This document shows, piece by piece, positions 5,980-35,473 of a DNA stretch of 35,752 bases. Positions within the stretch are counted from its first letter, which is position 1. Every line of letters starts with the position of its first letter. The position numbers were made by a program, and so were the translations under genes. Source of the stretch: Syntrophorhabdaceae bacterium (GTDB lineage: Bacteria; Desulfobacterota; Syntrophorhabdia; Syntrophorhabdales; Syntrophorhabdaceae). A model generated the notes under the pieces. It was not told the DNA's origin, ran no database searches, and was given only the letters and a program-made list of their open reading frames with translations. The stretch spans positions 1 through 35,752 of the forward strand of contig JAGOOA010000024.1 of assembly GCA_017992765.1 (NCBI GenBank). Reading direction: 5' to 3'.

Positions 5980-6153
5980 CGTATATCGTATTTCGTATAT
6001 AGTATATCGAGGTTCTGAAGGAAACGTGCGGCGAAACAACCGTAATTCGTAATTCGTGAGACGTAAGTGGAAAAGCACAAGGCGCAAGAGCCTTCCGCCC
6101 CTTTCACGTTTTGTGTGGTTCCTCCAATTACGAATTACGATTCACGAATTACG
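5980..6153. repeat. Composite repeat: TCGTATATAG words plus element E2
   Basis: In the divergent gap between the DUF2284 gene and the pilus ATPase gene. A run of CGTATATCGTATTTCG type (5980-6010) precedes an inverted repeat whose left arm is CGTAATTCGTAATTCGTGAG (6041-6060) and right arm is 6130-6153. The stretch 6070-6153 (E2) recurs with roughly 80% identity at 13309-13393. Confidence 0.75.
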
Positions 6154-6174
6154 AGGGCCTTTATCATTTCCTTA

Positions 6175-6203
6175 TTGCAGTGTCTTCGTATTTTCCATAC
6201 AAT
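6175..6203 (+). promoter_or_regulatory. Sigma70-type promoter ending 6 bp before the ATG at 6210
   Basis: TTGCAG (6175-6180), 17-bp spacer, TACAAT (6198-6203). Six bases separate the -10 from the ATG and no Shine-Dalgarno is visible, the same geometry as at 203-237 and 586-620 bp past 11,000. It predicts a leaderless transcript. Confidence 0.55.
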
Positions 6204-6209
6204 AGTGAC

Positions 6210-7937
6210 ATGACAAAAAAGACGAAACGGGACTCATCGGGGGCAAAACTGGGGGAGATCCTCCTGAAGGAAAGATTTATCAGGCAGGAACAGCTTGATA
6301 GGGCGATCGAGATCCAGGAAGCCGGCGGGGGGCACCTCGGCGAGATCCTCGTCAACCGCGGTATCGTTCGCGAGGAAGATGTTGCCTTTGCGCTGTCCCA
6401 GCAGCTCAATATGCCCTTTGCTTCCTCGAAGACCGGTACCCTGAGGCCGGAAGAGGGCCAGGGCCTTGAAACGCTCGTCTCCAAGCAGGTTGCCCTGAGG
6501 AACACGATCCTGCCTATCTCGCGGGATAAAAATACCCTTACCTGCGCCATGTTCGATCCCCAGGATTTTATGCTCATTGATGAGCTCCGCAAGATCACGC
6601 GCTGTGAGATCAGCCCTGTCGTCGCCACGCGTTCCGATATACTGAGGGCGATAGAAGAATTTTATGGAGCCATCGACCTTGCAAAGGGGGGCGGACCAAA
6701 GCTCTATGGCATAGACAGATTGAGGCAGGCAGCTTCCGAAACGGATGATGACTCCTTAAGCCTTGACAGCATCATAGCCCGCGCAAAGGCAGCGCCCGTT
6801 GTTAAGCTCGTTGACCTCATGCTCTGGCAGGCGATCGACCAGCGGGCGTCGGACATCCACATCGAGCCCTTTGAAGGCAGGATCTCGCTGCGGTACAGGA
6901 TCGACGGCAAGCTCTATGATATCCCTCCACCGCCGCGCCACCTCTACCTGCCGATCGTTTCCAGGATCAAGATCCTGTCAAAGCTCGACATCTCCGAGAA
7001 GCGCCTGCCGCAGGACGGCACTTACATGGTCAAGCTCGAAGACAGGACGATCGACCTCCGGATCTCCATCATCCCCACCATCTATGGGGAGAAGGTCGTC
7101 ATGAGGATCCTCGACAGGAGCGGCGTCGTCTTCGACCTCGACAAGATGGGCTTTGAGCCGAACGACCTTGCGGCCCTGCAGAGGGCGATCGGCAGCCCAT
7201 ACGGCCTTGTCTTCATTACGGGCCCCACGGGGAGCGGAAAGTCCACAACCCTTTACGCCATTCTCCAGGCGATCAAGTCATCGACAAAGAACATCGTTAC
7301 CGTTGAAGACCCCGTGGAGTACCGGCTGGACGGCATCAACCAGGTACAGGTAAAGCCCGACATCGGCCTCACCTTCGCCGCGGCGCTGAGAAGCTTTTTG
7401 AGGCAGGATCCGGACATCATGCTCGTCGGCGAGGTGAGGGACCTTGAGACGGCAGAGATATGTGTCCGTTCAGCGCTGACGGGACACCTCGTCCTCTCAA
7501 CGCTCCATACGAACGATGCCCCGTCTGCGGTGACGAGGCTCATCGATATCGGCGTTGAGCCCTATCTCCTGGCGCCTACAATTCTCATCGTCATAGGGCA
7601 GCGGCTGGTCCGCAAGCTCTGCCCGGAATGCAAGGAGGCATACACGCCCACCGTGAAAGAGCTCGGGGGCGCGAAGCTGGGGGCCGAAGTGATATACAGG
7701 ACGAAAGGCTGCCAGGCCTGCGGCAATACGGGCTATAAAGGAAGGACGCTCATTGCCGAGGTGATGCCGATCTCAGAAGACATCAAGGCCATGATCTCCC
7801 AGGGCGTGTCTTACCAGGAGATACGGAACATTGCAAAGAGATTGGGGATGTCGACGCTCTATGAGTCAGGCCTGAGGAAGGTGGAACAAGGCATCACAAG
7901 TCTGGAAGAGGTCTTCAGCGCCACGCTGGGAATATAG
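6210..7937 (+). CDS. Type II secretion / type IV pilus assembly ATPase (GspE/PilB family)
   Basis: A 575-residue hexameric secretion ATPase. Residues about 12-150 are an MshEN-type N-terminal domain. Walker A is GPTGSGKST (338-346), the Asp box TVEDPVEYR follows near 364, Walker B is IMLVGEVRD (403-411), and the His box is about 425-434. Zinc cysteines are C471, C474, C501 and C504. Such enzymes power pilus or pseudopilus assembly at the inner membrane. No partner genes are nearby, so the system served is unknown. ATG 6210 was chosen because the in-frame upstream extension is translated repeat DNA and the promoter sits just before it. Confidence 0.92.
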   Translation: MTKKTKRDSSGAKLGEILLKERFIRQEQLDRAIEIQEAGGGHLGEILVNRGIVREEDVAFALSQQLNMPFASSKTGTLRPEEGQGLETLVSKQVALRNTILPISRDKNTLTCAMFDPQDFMLIDELRKITRCEISPVVATRSDILRAIEEFYGAIDLAKGGGPKLYGIDRLRQAASETDDDSLSLDSIIARAKAAPVVKLVDLMLWQAIDQRASDIHIEPFEGRISLRYRIDGKLYDIPPPPRHLYLPIVSRIKILSKLDISEKRLPQDGTYMVKLEDRTIDLRISIIPTIYGEKVVMRILDRSGVVFDLDKMGFEPNDLAALQRAIGSPYGLVFITGPTGSGKSTTLYAILQAIKSSTKNIVTVEDPVEYRLDGINQVQVKPDIGLTFAAALRSFLRQDPDIMLVGEVRDLETAEICVRSALTGHLVLSTLHTNDAPSAVTRLIDIGVEPYLLAPTILIVIGQRLVRKLCPECKEAYTPTVKELGGAKLGAEVIYRTKGCQACGNTGYKGRTLIAEVMPISEDIKAMISQGVSYQEIRNIAKRLGMSTLYESGLRKVEQGITSLEEVFSATLGI

Positions 7938-11620: not shown

Positions 11621-11866
11621 ATGCTTTTCTCCATAGGTAAAGAGATCCGAAAAGCCCGGAAAGCCCGCCGACTTTCCCAGGCAAAGCTGGCTAAGGCCCT
11701 CGGCATGAGCCGTACCACCGTAGGGCAGATCGAGAATGGCACCGTCCAGGATATTGGAACGAGGAAGCTTATCAGGGTTCTTGAATTCTTGGGGTTAGAA
11801 TTACGCGTCCGGCCGTCGGGCGCTTTTCCAACACTGGAAGAGCTTCGTGAAGAGGAGGGCGGCTAA
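11621..11866 (+). CDS. hipB: HipB-like XRE-family antitoxin
   Basis: An 81-residue DNA-binding protein. The helix-turn-helix (LSQAKLAKALGMSRTTVGQ) covers about residues 18-36, followed by the IENG segment typical of XRE regulators. The C-terminal tail is acidic (EELREEEGG). By analogy with HipB it should bind the HipA-like kinase and repress the operon. Its stop overlaps the hipA start by one base (TAATG), the usual antitoxin-then-toxin order. The ATGCAT palindromes upstream are its likely binding sites. Identity rests on the HTH plus the adjacent HipA gene. Confidence 0.85.
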   Translation: MLFSIGKEIRKARKARRLSQAKLAKALGMSRTTVGQIENGTVQDIGTRKLIRVLEFLGLELRVRPSGAFPTLEELREEEGG

Positions 11867-13059
11867 TGGCCGGTATCCCTTCGCTTGCCGTATGGGCCGG
11901 CGGAAAAAGGTCGGGAATTCTCGCGAAGGAATCGCGAAAGGAATACGTGTTCACCTATACACCTGAAGCAGGCAGCACGGCCCGGGTATCCCTGACCATG
12001 CCCGTCCGTCTGGCAAGCTGGGTAAGTAGCGACCTGCACCCTGTATTCCAGATGAACCTTCCCGAAGGTGCGCTCCTCGATGCGATCCGTCGGGCCATCG
12101 CCAAGGTGGTGGGAGAGGATGACCTCTCCATACTACAGGTGACCGGGGGCAACCAGGTGGGGAGAAACCGGTTTGCGCTTCCTGATGATGCGGCGCCGGG
12201 GATTGCCGCAACACCGGAATCTCTGGATGAATTGCTCGCCTATCCGGACGCGAGGGGGCTTTTCCATGAACTCGTTGCGAAATACGCCCTTCGGTCGGGA
12301 ATATCGGGGGTCCAGCCAAAAGTCCTCCTCGAGGCGTCGGAAAGAGGGTCGTTGGCCTCGTCAGGGTATATTGTCAAGTCCTGGGGTTCCGATTACCCAT
12401 GCCTGGCTGCCAACGAGTACTTCTGTATGACGGCGGTGAAACGTGCGGGGCAGCCGACACCGGAGTATTTCCTCTCGGACAACGGAGGCCTCTTCATTAT
12501 GCGGCGGTTCGACGTCACGCCGGAGGGTACTCCGATCGGTTTTGAAGACATGTGCAGCCTGCAGGCGTACGGTACGGCACAGAAGTATTCCGGGAGCTAT
12601 GAAAGGGTAGCGAAGAGCATTGGCGACTATGTCTCCGGCGACCGCCTCATGGCGGCGAGAGAACAGTTCTTTGCCGCGCTGGTACTGTCGGTCATGCTTC
12701 GAAACGGCGACGCCCATCTGAAGAATTTTGGCGTGCTCTATGCCGAGCCTGGAGGCGCTGTCGGGCTTGCCCCCGTCTATGACGTGGTAACAACAACGGC
12801 TTACATCAGCAAGGACGTGCCTGCCCTTACCCTGGCGGGCACGAAGAAGTGGTGGCCCCGGAAGGTGCTGGAGCGTTTCGCCGTCTCGCACCTCTTTCTG
12901 CCCGTAAAGAAGGTTTCGGGCATATTCGGCAGTGCCGCTGAAGCGGTGATGGCGACGAGAGAGTCGATCCCGGCCTACATATCGGAACACCCGGATTTTC
13001 GTGAGATCGGTGAGCGAATGATGGCGCAATGGGAAGAAGGGGTCAGGGGGTTGAAATAG
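11866..13059 (+). CDS. hipA: HipA-like serine/threonine kinase toxin
   Basis: A 397-residue HipA-family kinase. An N-terminal couple_hipA region (about 5-105) precedes the kinase lobes. The glycine-rich loop is SGISGVQPK (144-152), equivalent to the E. coli HipA loop whose serine is autophosphorylated. K171 is a candidate ATP-binding lysine. NGDAHLKN (280-287) is the catalytic loop with D282 and N287, and YDVVTT (D306) is the metal-binding motif. Family members phosphorylate aminoacyl-tRNA synthetases and cause growth arrest; the target here is unknown. All key motifs are intact, so it is probably active. It ends 60 bp from tRNA-Ser on the opposite strand. Confidence 0.9.
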   Translation: MAGIPSLAVWAGGKRSGILAKESRKEYVFTYTPEAGSTARVSLTMPVRLASWVSSDLHPVFQMNLPEGALLDAIRRAIAKVVGEDDLSILQVTGGNQVGRNRFALPDDAAPGIAATPESLDELLAYPDARGLFHELVAKYALRSGISGVQPKVLLEASERGSLASSGYIVKSWGSDYPCLAANEYFCMTAVKRAGQPTPEYFLSDNGGLFIMRRFDVTPEGTPIGFEDMCSLQAYGTAQKYSGSYERVAKSIGDYVSGDRLMAAREQFFAALVLSVMLRNGDAHLKNFGVLYAEPGGAVGLAPVYDVVTTTAYISKDVPALTLAGTKKWWPRKVLERFAVSHLFLPVKKVSGIFGSAAEAVMATRESIPAYISEHPDFREIGERMMAQWEEGVRGLK

Positions 13060-31505: not shown

Positions 31506-31543
31506 AGCTGAAAGCTGACTGCTGATGGCTGAGAGCCGCCTTT
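31506..31543. repeat. AGCTGAAAGC-type word repeat after surE
   Basis: GCTGAAAGCTGACTGCTGATG followed by GCTGAGAGCCGCC abuts the surE stop, in the same position relative to the gene end as the repeat at lpxL. Confidence 0.6.
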
Positions 31544-32292
31544 CATACACTGTTCCCGAAATGCACTTTATATTTTCTCATTGACCTCATACCGGTCATG
31601 TCCAGGTCCAGGGGGGTTATGGAGACGTAGCCTTTCTCGACGGCGTAAAAATCGGTTCCCCTGATGTGTTCGTAATTTTCACCGTTGCCGCCGATCCAGT
31701 AATATTTTCCGCCTCTCGGATCAAGCCTCTCGACAACTGCATCATTATATATCCTTTTGCCGAGCCTTGTCACCATAAAACCTTTTACCCGCCTTGTCGG
31801 CAGGTTGGGAATGTTGATATTAAGGAAGGTGTTGTCCGGCGTCCCGATGCCGGAGATGTTCTTAATTATTTTCTCAACGATCTTTGCCGCGTCGTTGAAA
31901 CGGAAATCATCCCTTGCGCAGAGGGACACCGCCAGAGAGGGTATCCGCATAAAGGCGCCTTCCTTTGCGGCTGCCACGGTCCCGGAGTAGTTTACGTCCT
32001 GGCCCATATTGGGACCCTTGTTGATCCCGGAGATGATGAGGTGCGGTGGTTGCCTCAGGATCACCTTGACGCCGAGGTATACGCAATCGGCAGGGGTGCC
32101 GTTCGTTGAATAGATCCCGCCTGCGACCTCTTTTATCCTCAGCGGCTTGTGGAGGGTGATCGCATGGGCGACGCAGGTCCTTTCCCTCTCGGGAGATATG
32201 ATGCATATGTCGTGTTTTTTGAGGAGATGATCCCTGAGGGTCAGGATACCCTCTGAATTCACGCCGTCATCATTTGTGAGGAGGATTAGCAA
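31543..32292 (-). CDS. surE: 5'/3'-nucleotidase SurE
   Basis: A 249-residue SurE phosphatase. The N-terminal LLILLTNDDGVNSEG carries the metal-binding Asp pair, and SGINKGPNMGQDVNYSGTVA in the middle is the family signature. It dephosphorylates nucleoside monophosphates. No ATG is available: TTG 32292 gives the usual SurE start (M-L-I-L-L-T-N-D-D). A longer ATG frame would run through tRNA-Pro. The tRNA lies 23 bp upstream on the same strand, so surE is probably transcribed with it. Confidence 0.93.
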   Translation of the reverse strand: MLILLTNDDGVNSEGILTLRDHLLKKHDICIISPERERTCVAHAITLHKPLRIKEVAGGIYSTNGTPADCVYLGVKVILRQPPHLIISGINKGPNMGQDVNYSGTVAAAKEGAFMRIPSLAVSLCARDDFRFNDAAKIVEKIIKNISGIGTPDNTFLNINIPNLPTRRVKGFMVTRLGKRIYNDAVVERLDPRGGKYYWIGGNGENYEHIRGTDFYAVEKGYVSITPLDLDMTGMRSMRKYKVHFGNSV

Positions 32293-32315
32293 ACGGACAC
32301 CAGCCAAAATAAGAA

Positions 32316-32391
32316 TCGGGGCGACGGGATTTGAACCTGCGGCCTCCTGCACCCCAAGCAGGTGCGCTAAACCATGCTGCGCTACGCCCCG
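32316..32391 (-). tRNA. tRNA-Pro (GGG)
   Basis: A 76-base tRNA. Acceptor CGGGGCG pairs with CGCCCCG, discriminator A, no encoded CCA. The anticodon arm CCTGC-TTGGGGT-GCAGG gives GGG. The T-arm is GCAGG-TTCAAAT-CCCGT, with an A-C mismatch in the stem where most tRNA-Pro have A-U. Confidence 0.94.
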
Positions 32392-32401
32392 ATAGTATAA
32401 A

Positions 32402-32454: not shown

Positions 32455-32535
32455 GTGCGGGAGAGGGCCAGGGCACGGGTAGTACTTGCAGTATCATTAT
32501 TCCCGCTCCCCTTGCGGGAGAGGGTCAGGGAGAGG
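32455..32535. repeat. GC-rich GCGGGAGAGGG repeat
   Basis: GTGCGGGAGAGGGCCAGGG (32455-32473) and a second unit (32502-32535) with the CCCGC-TCCCCTT-GCGGG hairpin followed by AGAGGGTCAGGGAGAGG. This type of dispersed GC-rich repeat occurs in many bacterial genomes. The rest of the 277-bp gap (32392-32668) shows no gene. Confidence 0.6.
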
Positions 32536-32668
32536 GGGGGTGAATTATGCGACCAAGTTCCTTGAAATGCATCTGGCCGGCACCCGGCATCGAGCATCGG
32601 TTTTTCTGTGAGCCATAAACCATGAATGGCACTTCTCGCCAAACGCCGAACGGTAGGCGCCGAACACG

Positions 32669-33892
32669 TTATCCCCGGTGGAGGAGCTTTTTGACGATGT
32701 CTTCGATCTCCGCCGCAAACCTTCCGTGGGGATGTTTCGCGACGACGGGCACCAGGTCGATAACGCTCTCCTCTATCTCTTTGTGTACTGCAATATTCCC
32801 TAAGAATGCCACCTCTTTTGAAAGCCATTTTTTCGTAACATCCTGAACCTTCATCACAACGCGATGGGCGTCGGCATTGTTCGGGACCTTGTTCACGATA
32901 AGGCAGGGGCGGAAATCCGCAATGGCCTTTGTGACCACAGAGAGGTCAAGCGGCCGGTGCTGCCTGATATTTTCCATGAGATCCCCGATTGTTCTTGCCT
33001 TGGCGCCATCGGGAGACGTTGTCGCCTCGCGGATAAACCTCTCGAGGTCAACATCCTTTTGGTCCCTGAAATTTGACTCAGGGCCGAAGAGCCTGTTCAA
33101 TTTCCTGTAGAGGGCTGCCTTGATGAAATGATAGGCGCTTATGTATGACGCTGAATCGCGGGTCGTTACCACGATACCGTGATCGGCCTGAAGAAAAAAG
33201 TCTATGATGTTGTAAGATGTGTCCCCGCCGAGATCGAGCACGACGTAATCCGCGTCAATATTCCCTATGCTCTTTATCAAGCGCAGTTTTTTTGCAAATT
33301 CGATATTTGCGGCTCCCAGCTCGGAGCTGTCGCCGCCGATGAGCAGGGGGCCGTAATCGCTTTCAACCATGGTCTCTTCCAGGGTGTTCACGCGCCTCCC
33401 GAGGAAGTCGTTTATTGTATGTTTTAAGAGCTTTCTCTTTCCGAGATAGAGGTGGATATTCGCCCCGCCGAGATCGAGGTCGACGACAACCGTTTTAAAT
33501 CCTCTCGACGCAAGAAACACCCCGAGGTTGGCCGCGAAGACGCTCTTCCCCACCCCGCCCTTCGCGCCCCCTACGGCGATGATCACCCTCTTCCTGGTGA
33601 TCGTTCCCGCCGCGGGCTCCATCTTCTCAAGCAGAAAGGATGTGATAATCTCATAGGCGCTGTGTATCCTCATAAAATGGTCGGATGCCGTTCCTTTTGA
33701 CGCCTGGGGATGCATGTCGGGATGATATGCCTTTGCCTTCTTCCTGTACGCCTTCTTTACCGTCTCGATATCTATATTCCTGAAGAAATCCTTATCCTTC
33801 AGCAGTTCGGCAGGGAACAGGTACGAACAGGCATTTTTTATTCTCCTTGATTGTTCGTCCTCCCGTCCGGCTGCGGCCGCCTGCTTAGCCAT
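32669..33892 (-). CDS. J-domain fused to MinD/FlhG-type ParA ATPase
   Basis: A 407-residue fusion. Residues about 39-86 look like a J-domain: helix II (VKKAYRKKAKAY), the HPD motif at 57-59 and helix III (HFMRIHSAYEII). Residues about 101-405 form a ParA/MinD ATPase: deviant Walker A KGGVGKS (111-117), VVVDLDLGGANIHLYLG (D138, D140), and YVVLDLGGDTS as Walker B. DLGGANIH is typical of FlhG/MinD2-type members. A J-domain would recruit Hsp70 (DnaK), so the pair suggests a chaperone-linked positioning ATPase; that is inference. No Shine-Dalgarno precedes the ATG. No flagellar or partition genes are adjacent. Confidence 0.85.
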   Translation of the reverse strand: MAKQAAAAGREDEQSRRIKNACSYLFPAELLKDKDFFRNIDIETVKKAYRKKAKAYHPDMHPQASKGTASDHFMRIHSAYEIITSFLLEKMEPAAGTITRKRVIIAVGGAKGGVGKSVFAANLGVFLASRGFKTVVVDLDLGGANIHLYLGKRKLLKHTINDFLGRRVNTLEETMVESDYGPLLIGGDSSELGAANIEFAKKLRLIKSIGNIDADYVVLDLGGDTSYNIIDFFLQADHGIVVTTRDSASYISAYHFIKAALYRKLNRLFGPESNFRDQKDVDLERFIREATTSPDGAKARTIGDLMENIRQHRPLDLSVVTKAIADFRPCLIVNKVPNNADAHRVVMKVQDVTKKWLSKEVAFLGNIAVHKEIEESVIDLVPVVAKHPHGRFAAEIEDIVKKLLHRG

Positions 33893-34051: not shown

Positions 34052-35473
34052 ATGGCAGGCGTAAAGATCAAAGATATTCTGGAGACGGTTGATAACAGCC
34101 TGGAGGTGAAAGAAGGGGCGGTCCGGGTAAGCGATCCGGCAAAATTTCGCGAGAAGGTTCAAAAGCTCGCCGAGATGTCGGCGCTTGAATCGGGGGAGAG
34201 GCAGAAGCTCGCACGATATCTCACGCGCGCGGCGGCCCTGGATCTGGGGATCGTTCCCGCCTCGATCCACGATCTGTACATGGCCCGCGGCCGAGGCGAG
34301 GTGCCGCCGGTCTTCACGGTTCCGGCGATAAACCTGCGCGCCCTTTCTTTTGACGCTGCCCGCGTGATCTTTCGCCTGGCAAAAGGCATTGATGCCTCGG
34401 CATTCATCTTTGAGATAGCGCGCTCCGAGATCGGATACACGAACCAGCACCCCACGGAATACGCCACTTCTATCCTTGCCGCTGCCATAGCGGAGGATTA
34501 CAAGGGGCCGGTATTTATCCAGGGGGACCATTTTCAGATCTCCGCAAAGCGGTACGGGGCCAACCCCGATGCCGAGGTGCAGGCGGTGAAAGACCTGATA
34601 AAGGAATCGATCGCCGCGGGTTTTTTTAACATTGATGTAGATACCTCTACGATGGTAGACCTGAGCAAACCCACGGTGCCGGAGCAGCAGGAGCTCAATA
34701 CCGGGCTTTCCGCCGAATTGACCGCCTATATCCGCAAAACGGAGCCCAAGGGGGTAACCGTTTCAGTGGGCGGTGAGATCGGCGAGGTCGGCGGCCGTAA
34801 CTCGACGGAGGAAGAGCTGCGCGCCTATATTGAAGGCTTCAGGAAGGCGCTGGACGAGCGGGGCGCCGGAATGACGGGTTTGAGCAAGATCAGCATCCAG
34901 ACTGGAACGTCGCATGGCGGCGTTGTGCTTCCGGACGGGTCTATTGCGAAGGTCAAGGTCGATTTCGACACATTGCACCGCTTAAGCCAGGTTGCCCGAA
35001 AGGATTATGGCATGGGAGGAGCTGTGCAGCACGGCGCTTCCACCTTGCCCGAAGACGCCTTCGGCAAGTTTGTGGAGATTGAGACGTGCGAGATCCACCT
35101 GGCAACGAATTTTATGAATATGTTCTTCGACCGCATCCCCGATAGCCTGCGTGAGGAAATGTATTCCTACCTGCGGGAAAAACATTCCTCGGATAAGAAA
35201 AGCGACATGACCGATGAGCAGTTCTACTATAAAGTGCGGAAAAATGCGGTGGGTCCTTTCAAGACGCAGTCATGGAACGTGCCGTCTTCCGTCAAGGAAG
35301 CGATCAAGAAGGACTGGGAGTCCCAGTTCAGGAAGCTCTTCGATCTGTTGGGCATGAAGGGCACCCGTCAGTACGTTGAGAAATTTATAAAGCCGGTTGT
35401 TATCCAGCCGAACCTTAAGGATTACCTCGGCGAGGCGGCCGGCGTCGAGAATGTGAGCGATCTCGCGGACTAA
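34052..35473 (+). CDS. Class II aldolase, long fructose-bisphosphate aldolase-like type
   Basis: A 473-residue TIM-barrel protein with class II FBA motifs: FIQGDHFQ (metal histidine), FNIDVDTSTMVDL, VGGEIGEVGG, SIQTGTSHGGVVLPDG and GAVQHGAST. It is about 120 residues longer than typical class II FBA, with extra N-terminal (1-80) and C-terminal (about 375-473) segments. It should interconvert fructose-1,6-bisphosphate and triose phosphates; the neighbouring fbp end supports this. AAGGAGG lies 6 bases before the ATG. A tagatose- or other sugar-phosphate substrate is possible. Confidence 0.85.
   Translation: MAGVKIKDILETVDNSLEVKEGAVRVSDPAKFREKVQKLAEMSALESGERQKLARYLTRAAALDLGIVPASIHDLYMARGRGEVPPVFTVPAINLRALSFDAARVIFRLAKGIDASAFIFEIARSEIGYTNQHPTEYATSILAAAIAEDYKGPVFIQGDHFQISAKRYGANPDAEVQAVKDLIKESIAAGFFNIDVDTSTMVDLSKPTVPEQQELNTGLSAELTAYIRKTEPKGVTVSVGGEIGEVGGRNSTEEELRAYIEGFRKALDERGAGMTGLSKISIQTGTSHGGVVLPDGSIAKVKVDFDTLHRLSQVARKDYGMGGAVQHGASTLPEDAFGKFVEIETCEIHLATNFMNMFFDRIPDSLREEMYSYLREKHSSDKKSDMTDEQFYYKVRKNAVGPFKTQSWNVPSSVKEAIKKDWESQFRKLFDLLGMKGTRQYVEKFIKPVVIQPNLKDYLGEAAGVENVSDLAD

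Follow-up and report, generated by a model that had tools for sequence, protein, structure and literature searches.

A J-domain fused to an FlhG/FleN-type ATPase in Desulfobacterota and its possible role in directing DnaK

The nearest published link to a fusion of a J-domain with an FlhG-type ATPase is SflA of Vibrio, which carries a cytoplasmic DnaJ domain and acts as a repressor of flagellation in cells lacking FlhF and FlhG. Once SflA is lost from such strains, lateral flagella return, and the mechanism that connects it to this pair is given as unknown in the available part of the source (PMC7226244). Its likeness to the protein described here lies in the DnaJ domain and in the genetic link to FlhF/FlhG; it differs in spanning the membrane once and in having a periplasmic TPR/Sel1-like domain, and the accessible portion of the same paper describes no ATPase domain for it and calls it Vibrio-specific (PMC7226244). 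With respect to the ATPase, the N-terminal DQAxxLR motif of FlhG stimulates FlhF, according to the excerpt available (PMC12826062). The ParA/MinD positioning ATPases McdA and ParC share the superfamily and the ATP-switch logic of the present protein, but their partners are separate proteins; many ATPases of this kind are orphans with no known partner, and the term DnaJ does not occur in the accessible text (PMC10241942). DnaJ and MinD are both mentioned in the available part of a further paper that has no bearing on a J–FlhG fusion (PMC7159879). TopJ of Mycoplasma, met here as an NCBIfam match, is a J-domain protein tied by name to a polar structure, and its similarity to the present protein is limited to the J-domain. 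We know of no P-loop ATPase domain in TopJ.

The gene considered here lies in a window of 35,752 nucleotides (the whole stretch of DNA that was analysed) from a Syntrophorhabdaceae bacterium, and its features are collected in Table 1. The fusion of a J-domain to an FlhG-type ATPase is real. Specifically, DnaJ (PF00226) is matched at residues 39-84 with E 1.1e-10 and 41.8 bits against a cut-off of 27.8, and the ParA, CbiA and AAA_31 families are matched over residues 103-377 with E 4.5e-14 to 4.5e-11; because of these Pfam scores, a chance match is excluded for either half. Conservation of the J region likewise speaks against a chance J match, and a start-codon or frameshift artefact merging two genes is rejected because the identical layout recurs in many genomes. 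A sequence-only reading of this DNA had proposed a J-domain and a MinD/FlhG-like ATPase in one open reading frame at 32669-33892, with HPD at residues 57-59 and the ATPase intact. Both domains are matched by Pfam at those coordinates on the minus strand, HPD stands where it was placed, and the Walker motif KGGVGKS (111-117) is complete in the 407-residue frame. The gene is single copy in its own genome, where the other matches are weak ParA-type proteins and one DnaJ-like protein.

Table 1. Coordinates of the J-domain–ATPase gene and its parts in the window
Feature	Coordinates	Strand	Basis
Complete gene of the fusion between J-domain and FlhG/FleN-like ATPase, 407 aa	32669..33892	-	ORF list, Pfam, profile match
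J-domain region, residues 16-90 (Pfam core 39-84)	33623..33847	-	Pfam, models, conservation
HPD motif, residues 57-59	33716..33724	-	present in 26/28 distinct J-bearing relatives
FlhG/FleN-like P-loop ATPase, residues 103-407	32672..33586	-	Pfam, profile match, structure alignment
Deviant Walker A motif KGGVGKS, residues 111-117	33542..33562	-	sequence
~64-residue insert, residues 264-327	32912..33103	-	profile-match gap in FlhG-type proteins

Judged by sequence and predicted structure, the ATPase is closest to FlhG/FleN rather than to MinD or ParA. A profile of 19 J-bearing proteins ranked FlhG (4rz2, E 1.8e-34) and FleN (5j1j, E 2e-27) first among solved structures, with the best MinD match at E 8.8e-18 and others worse, and these values hold up the initial label of MinD/FlhG-like while sharpening it to FlhG/FleN. 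Similarly, the full model (mean pLDDT 70) aligned to FleN over 244 residues with Z 29.1 and rmsd 2.1, as against Z 25 for MinD and about 23.5 for Soj. The NCBIfam cut-offs for MinD (TIGR01968, 50.2 bits vs 212.9) and for the ParA partition ATPase (NF041546, 26 bits vs 180) were both missed. In addition to ATPase sequence and fold, the protein shares with FlhG/FleN an intact deviant Walker A; unlike them, it carries a J-domain instead of the DQAxxLR enhancer helix and an insert of about 64 residues, it occupies a separate tree clade, and its gene does not lie in a flagellar cluster. The insert (264-327) is common to the J-bearing proteins and most of their J-less relatives and is absent from the FlhG-type proteins used for comparison within the phylum, in which the profile match stops around residue 257 and restarts around 329. 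DQAxxLR was found in none of the 28 J-bearing proteins, a test that separates poorly because only 2 of the 18 FlhG-type comparison proteins carry the motif. With regard to the C-terminal membrane-targeting tail of FlhG/FleN, for which the ends of the alignments were the sole guide, residue 407 at the end of the model pairs with FleN 254, and this is also where most FlhG-type sequences from the host family stop. A separate observation concerns one member on a very long branch (L086:8230-9459, minus strand, genome G086), in which HPD is kept and Walker A reads KGGVGAS; by sequence, this member has kept its J-domain motif but seems to have a defective ATPase.

In terms of the J-domain, the assignment leans on sequence because the structure matches of this part are weak. 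PF00226 is matched at E <= 0.01 by 17 of the 19 members of set A2. Of the 28 distinct J-bearing relatives, a set that includes close relatives and leaves out L014 (its contig ends inside the gene, HPD present), 26 retain HPD; a lack of conservation among homologues had been named in the sequence-only reading as a ground for refutation. By position, H57 and P58 are each kept in 27/28, D59 in 26/28 and R50 in 25/28, which in these sequences places all four among the most conserved J positions, and A21, F26, F36 and A48 are kept in all 28. The two distinct proteins that have lost HPD are represented by L026/L071 and L050/L080. The J-only model (mean pLDDT 76) has helices at 4-23, 42-56 and 68-91, and across the models helix II (42-56) is followed by the HPD loop and by a helix III that runs from 66 or 68 to about 90. 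Of the J-fold that the sequence-only reading expected, the models show these three elements, with modest structural support (Foldseek E >= 0.38), whereas helix I departs from the usual pattern, the Pfam DnaJ match beginning at profile position 11 of 63. Foldseek returned DnaJ-family chains as its leading matches to the J part, none of them significant (best E 0.38). VIA-align, for which Z < 8 can reflect a common arrangement by the tool's own note, gave Tim16 as the best match to the J model (Z 7.3, rmsd 2.8, 65 residues) and Z 5.2 against the J-domain of the DnaK complex 5nro. Tim16 is a J-like protein without HPD. For residues 1-98, the nearest other matches in the genomes of the host family stood at E 1.8e-7 or worse, in proteins of DnaJ-like lengths. 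Across three within-genus pairs, made up of the gene itself and its two nearest relatives, dN/dS was 0.18, 0.15 and 0.17 for the J region (residues 16-90) and 0.06-0.09 for residues 103-263, with higher values in the linker where computable. On these ratios, both the J and the ATPase halves are evidently under purifying selection and kept.

A search for the same architecture, as the sequence-only reading had suggested, found it in many Desulfobacterota genomes. Among 395 genomes of a phylum sample, 97 had a match at E <= 1e-30, of which 18 read as J-clade carriers (counting G311, whose L087 is a fragment starting inside the ATPase) and 79 as holding J-less relatives only; 14 of 60 genomes drawn as relatives carry a J-bearing gene. 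The named matches are Deltaproteobacteria MAGs, including Syntrophorhabdus, with a J-less copy in Desulfatitalea alkaliphila. In trees of the ATPase, the J-bearing rows group in one clade with support of 99/98 (60 rows) and 97/95 (54 rows, after six long or odd rows were dropped), the FlhG-type rows group in another (100/99 and 100/100, respectively), and the other J-less relatives, a sister group, fall outside the J clade. Both trees left out L087, L104, L005, L008-L010, L012, L014, L002-L004, L016-L070 and L108-L136, many of which are the same genes as rows used and the rest further relatives. Two J-less rows, L015 and L072, fall within the J clade, and upstream of them no hidden J remains were detected in L015 and only matches of E 0.15 or worse in L072. 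Because the J-bearing proteins form one clade holding two J-less members, a single gain followed by two losses is the most economical history. Taken together, these comparisons place the protein in a Desulfobacterota family in which the fusion has been inherited across many related species.

The gene is flanked by a SurE-like gene with tRNA-Pro (32315-32392) and by a divergent gene (34052-35473) that is aldolase-like by eye. That no flagellar, partition or dnaK gene adjoins it was already part of the sequence-only reading, and none was recognised among the window ORFs and neighbours. Nor was a ParB-type partner recognised by eye among the listed neighbours, and no neighbour gene common to most J-bearing genera emerged as a conserved operon partner. 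Several features of the window may be recorded for their own sake. The SurE-like ORF as listed (31543-32352) has its start within tRNA-Pro, and the true start must therefore lie downstream of the listed one; a purine-rich stretch that holds an imperfect inverted repeat, of the dispersed-repeat type, lies between the J-ATPase gene and tRNA-Pro at 32505-32545; a HipA-like ORF recognised by eye at 11866-13059 is possibly half of a toxin-antitoxin pair; and a PilB/GspE-type ATPase, also assigned by eye, lies at 6111-7937, with no pilus genes recognised beside it.

A c-di-GMP theme in the neighbourhoods rests on few loci. In L084 and L085, a small gene, an HDOD gene and a GGDEF gene stand in a row (Pfam was run on L084 only), and of this row the cut locus L083 retains the small gene and a portion of HDOD. 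Near the J-bearing gene of L081 lie one gene with an HD domain and one that is Prim-Pol-like, and in L074 a PilZ gene and a J-less relative lie divergent from the J-bearing gene. Among 20 J-less loci (L074, L088-L103 and L105-L107, which are drawn from the better matches and are not a random sample), there are nine in which the ATPase gene adjoins a same-strand gene that is PilZ-type or PilZ-like (clusters C58, C35 and C17). Pfam on six of these nine genes gave three above the cut-off, two below it and one silent; cluster C17 is weak as PilZ, with E 0.0074 in L097 and 0.00033 in L101, both under the Pfam cut-off, and no match in L091. L103, which by eye looked like a PilZ fusion, had no Pfam PilZ match and was set aside. 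Gene family C6 (L081, L091, L097, L101, L102) has members close to one ATPase gene with J and to four without it, and has Prim-Pol-like Pfam matches in the two members scanned. The window's own genome contains GGDEF proteins, and its DnaK gene is at G000 C70.

In four J-less loci, a J-like gene lies directly downstream of the ATPase gene (L089:6645-7304, L090:5046-5651, L094:7366-8052 and L095:7651-8253). HPD is absent from all four, and the three scanned with Pfam match DnaJ together with a RodZ-type HTH_25. Such pairs are an apparent two-gene counterpart of the fusion, and because of them J-type domains and this ATPase family can be said to meet twice, once fused with HPD and once adjacent without it. 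A few genes further on, two of these loci also encode a small J-domain protein of 102-110 aa with HPD (L090:7803-8111 and L095:9416-9748).

With respect to flagella, FliM was found in 17 of the 18 J-clade carriers of the phylum sample (16/17 without G311), in 41 of the 79 genomes with only J-less relatives and in 239 of all 395. The Fisher p of 0.0012 for this co-occurrence assumes independent genomes and makes no correction for their shared ancestry. Among hand-picked genomes, FliM was present in 28/29 carriers vs 6/11 non-carriers. The exception among the 18 is the window's own genome, in which FliM and FlhA were not found; since it is 95% complete in 71 contigs, the missing flagellar cluster could be an assembly gap. 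Nonetheless, this genome weakens a flagellar role as the sole function. J-bearing genes lie outside flagellar clusters, and carriers such as G004, G012, G021, G030 and G034 have a separate FlhG-type gene near FliM; the J protein is therefore a paralogue and not the flagellar FlhG of those carriers. Many, though not demonstrably all, of the 18 FlhG-type rows lie in a flagellar setting, with FliM within about 8 kb on the same contig.

We give roughly even chances to the view that the protein is a dedicated J-protein built on an FlhG/FleN-type switch, which would bring DnaK to whatever the ATPase binds. The grounds are the J-domain with its HPD, the intact deviant-Walker ATPase, the single clade, purifying selection and the presence of DnaK in the genome. 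ATP binding would dimerise the ATPase, as in FlhG and MinD, and the ATP-bound dimer would dock on a partner protein or cell site; the docked dimer would then present two J-domains, through which the partner or a client could be handed to DnaK, and ATP hydrolysis or DnaK action would bring about release. We infer the recruitment of DnaK, the positioning and the target, and the steps are drawn from the biology of FlhG, MinD and J-proteins. The likeliest target would be a machine or regulator of a flagellar or c-di-GMP-linked surface programme rather than the general pool of unfolded proteins, because of the FliM co-occurrence, the few loci described above and the Vibrio SflA precedent; these hints are indirect. 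The sequence-only reading had suggested that chaperone action might be linked to the positioning of a complex or aggregate; such a link is plausible, and nothing among the results points to aggregates. Against the dedicated J-protein stand the want of a neighbour conserved across most J-bearing genera, the loss of HPD in 2/28, the two J-less clade members, L086 with HPD but KGGVGAS, the window's own genome without FliM and FlhA, the absence of DQAxxLR from 28/28 and the weak structure matches of the J part.

Some of these points would fit a J-like fold that has no stimulating effect on DnaK and is used solely for binding other proteins or for dimerisation. The same HPD losses, the atypical helix I, the HPD-less Tim16 as best VIA-align match (Z 7.3) and the four J-less ATPase genes followed by a separate HPD-less J-like gene all lean this way, but few positions of the J region are as well conserved as H57, P58, D59 and R50. 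Such surface residues are not required for the J fold. We regard a bare interaction module as rather unlikely. A different emphasis would cast the protein as a second FlhG with an accessory part in regulating how many flagella form or where they are placed, its J-domain performing in cis the task of SflA in trans. FlhG/FleN as the closest solved family, FliM in 17/18 carriers of the phylum sample and the SflA precedent are consistent with this role; yet the window's own genome lacks FliM and FlhA while keeping the gene under selection, no flagellar cluster holds the gene, the five carriers named above have a further FlhG-type gene close to FliM, and DQAxxLR is absent. We consider such a regulator unlikely, and it would narrow the target of the dedicated J-protein, so that both can hold together.

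The ATPase might also be the client itself, with the J-domain bringing DnaK to dismantle the ATPase dimer or complex and so reset the switch. The arrangement of J and ATPase in cis and the purifying selection on both halves would suit this cycle, which seems quite improbable given that L086 keeps HPD with a broken Walker A and that two clade members have no J at all. Returning to the dedicated J-protein, its boldest form would be ATP-switched DnaK targeting, in which an FlhG-family ATPase puts the J-domain, and with it Hsp70, at a selected site or complex in the cell, tied to flagellar or c-di-GMP surface programmes, as a cis-fused counterpart of SflA plus FlhF/FlhG; we put this forward tentatively, as possible though on balance doubtful.

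In the literature searched, from which most subscription papers were missing, no description of a J–FlhG fusion was found. The halves are each of known kinds, and it is the combination, its conservation and its single origin that appear undescribed there; automatic domain databases may list the architecture. To our knowledge, the route by which Hsp70 reaches particular bacterial complexes is known for few J-proteins. A natural one-chain J–FlhG protein makes the link between J-proteins and FlhG directly testable, as a single gene offers two separable point mutations, in HPD and in Walker A, and two readouts, DnaK stimulation and localisation.
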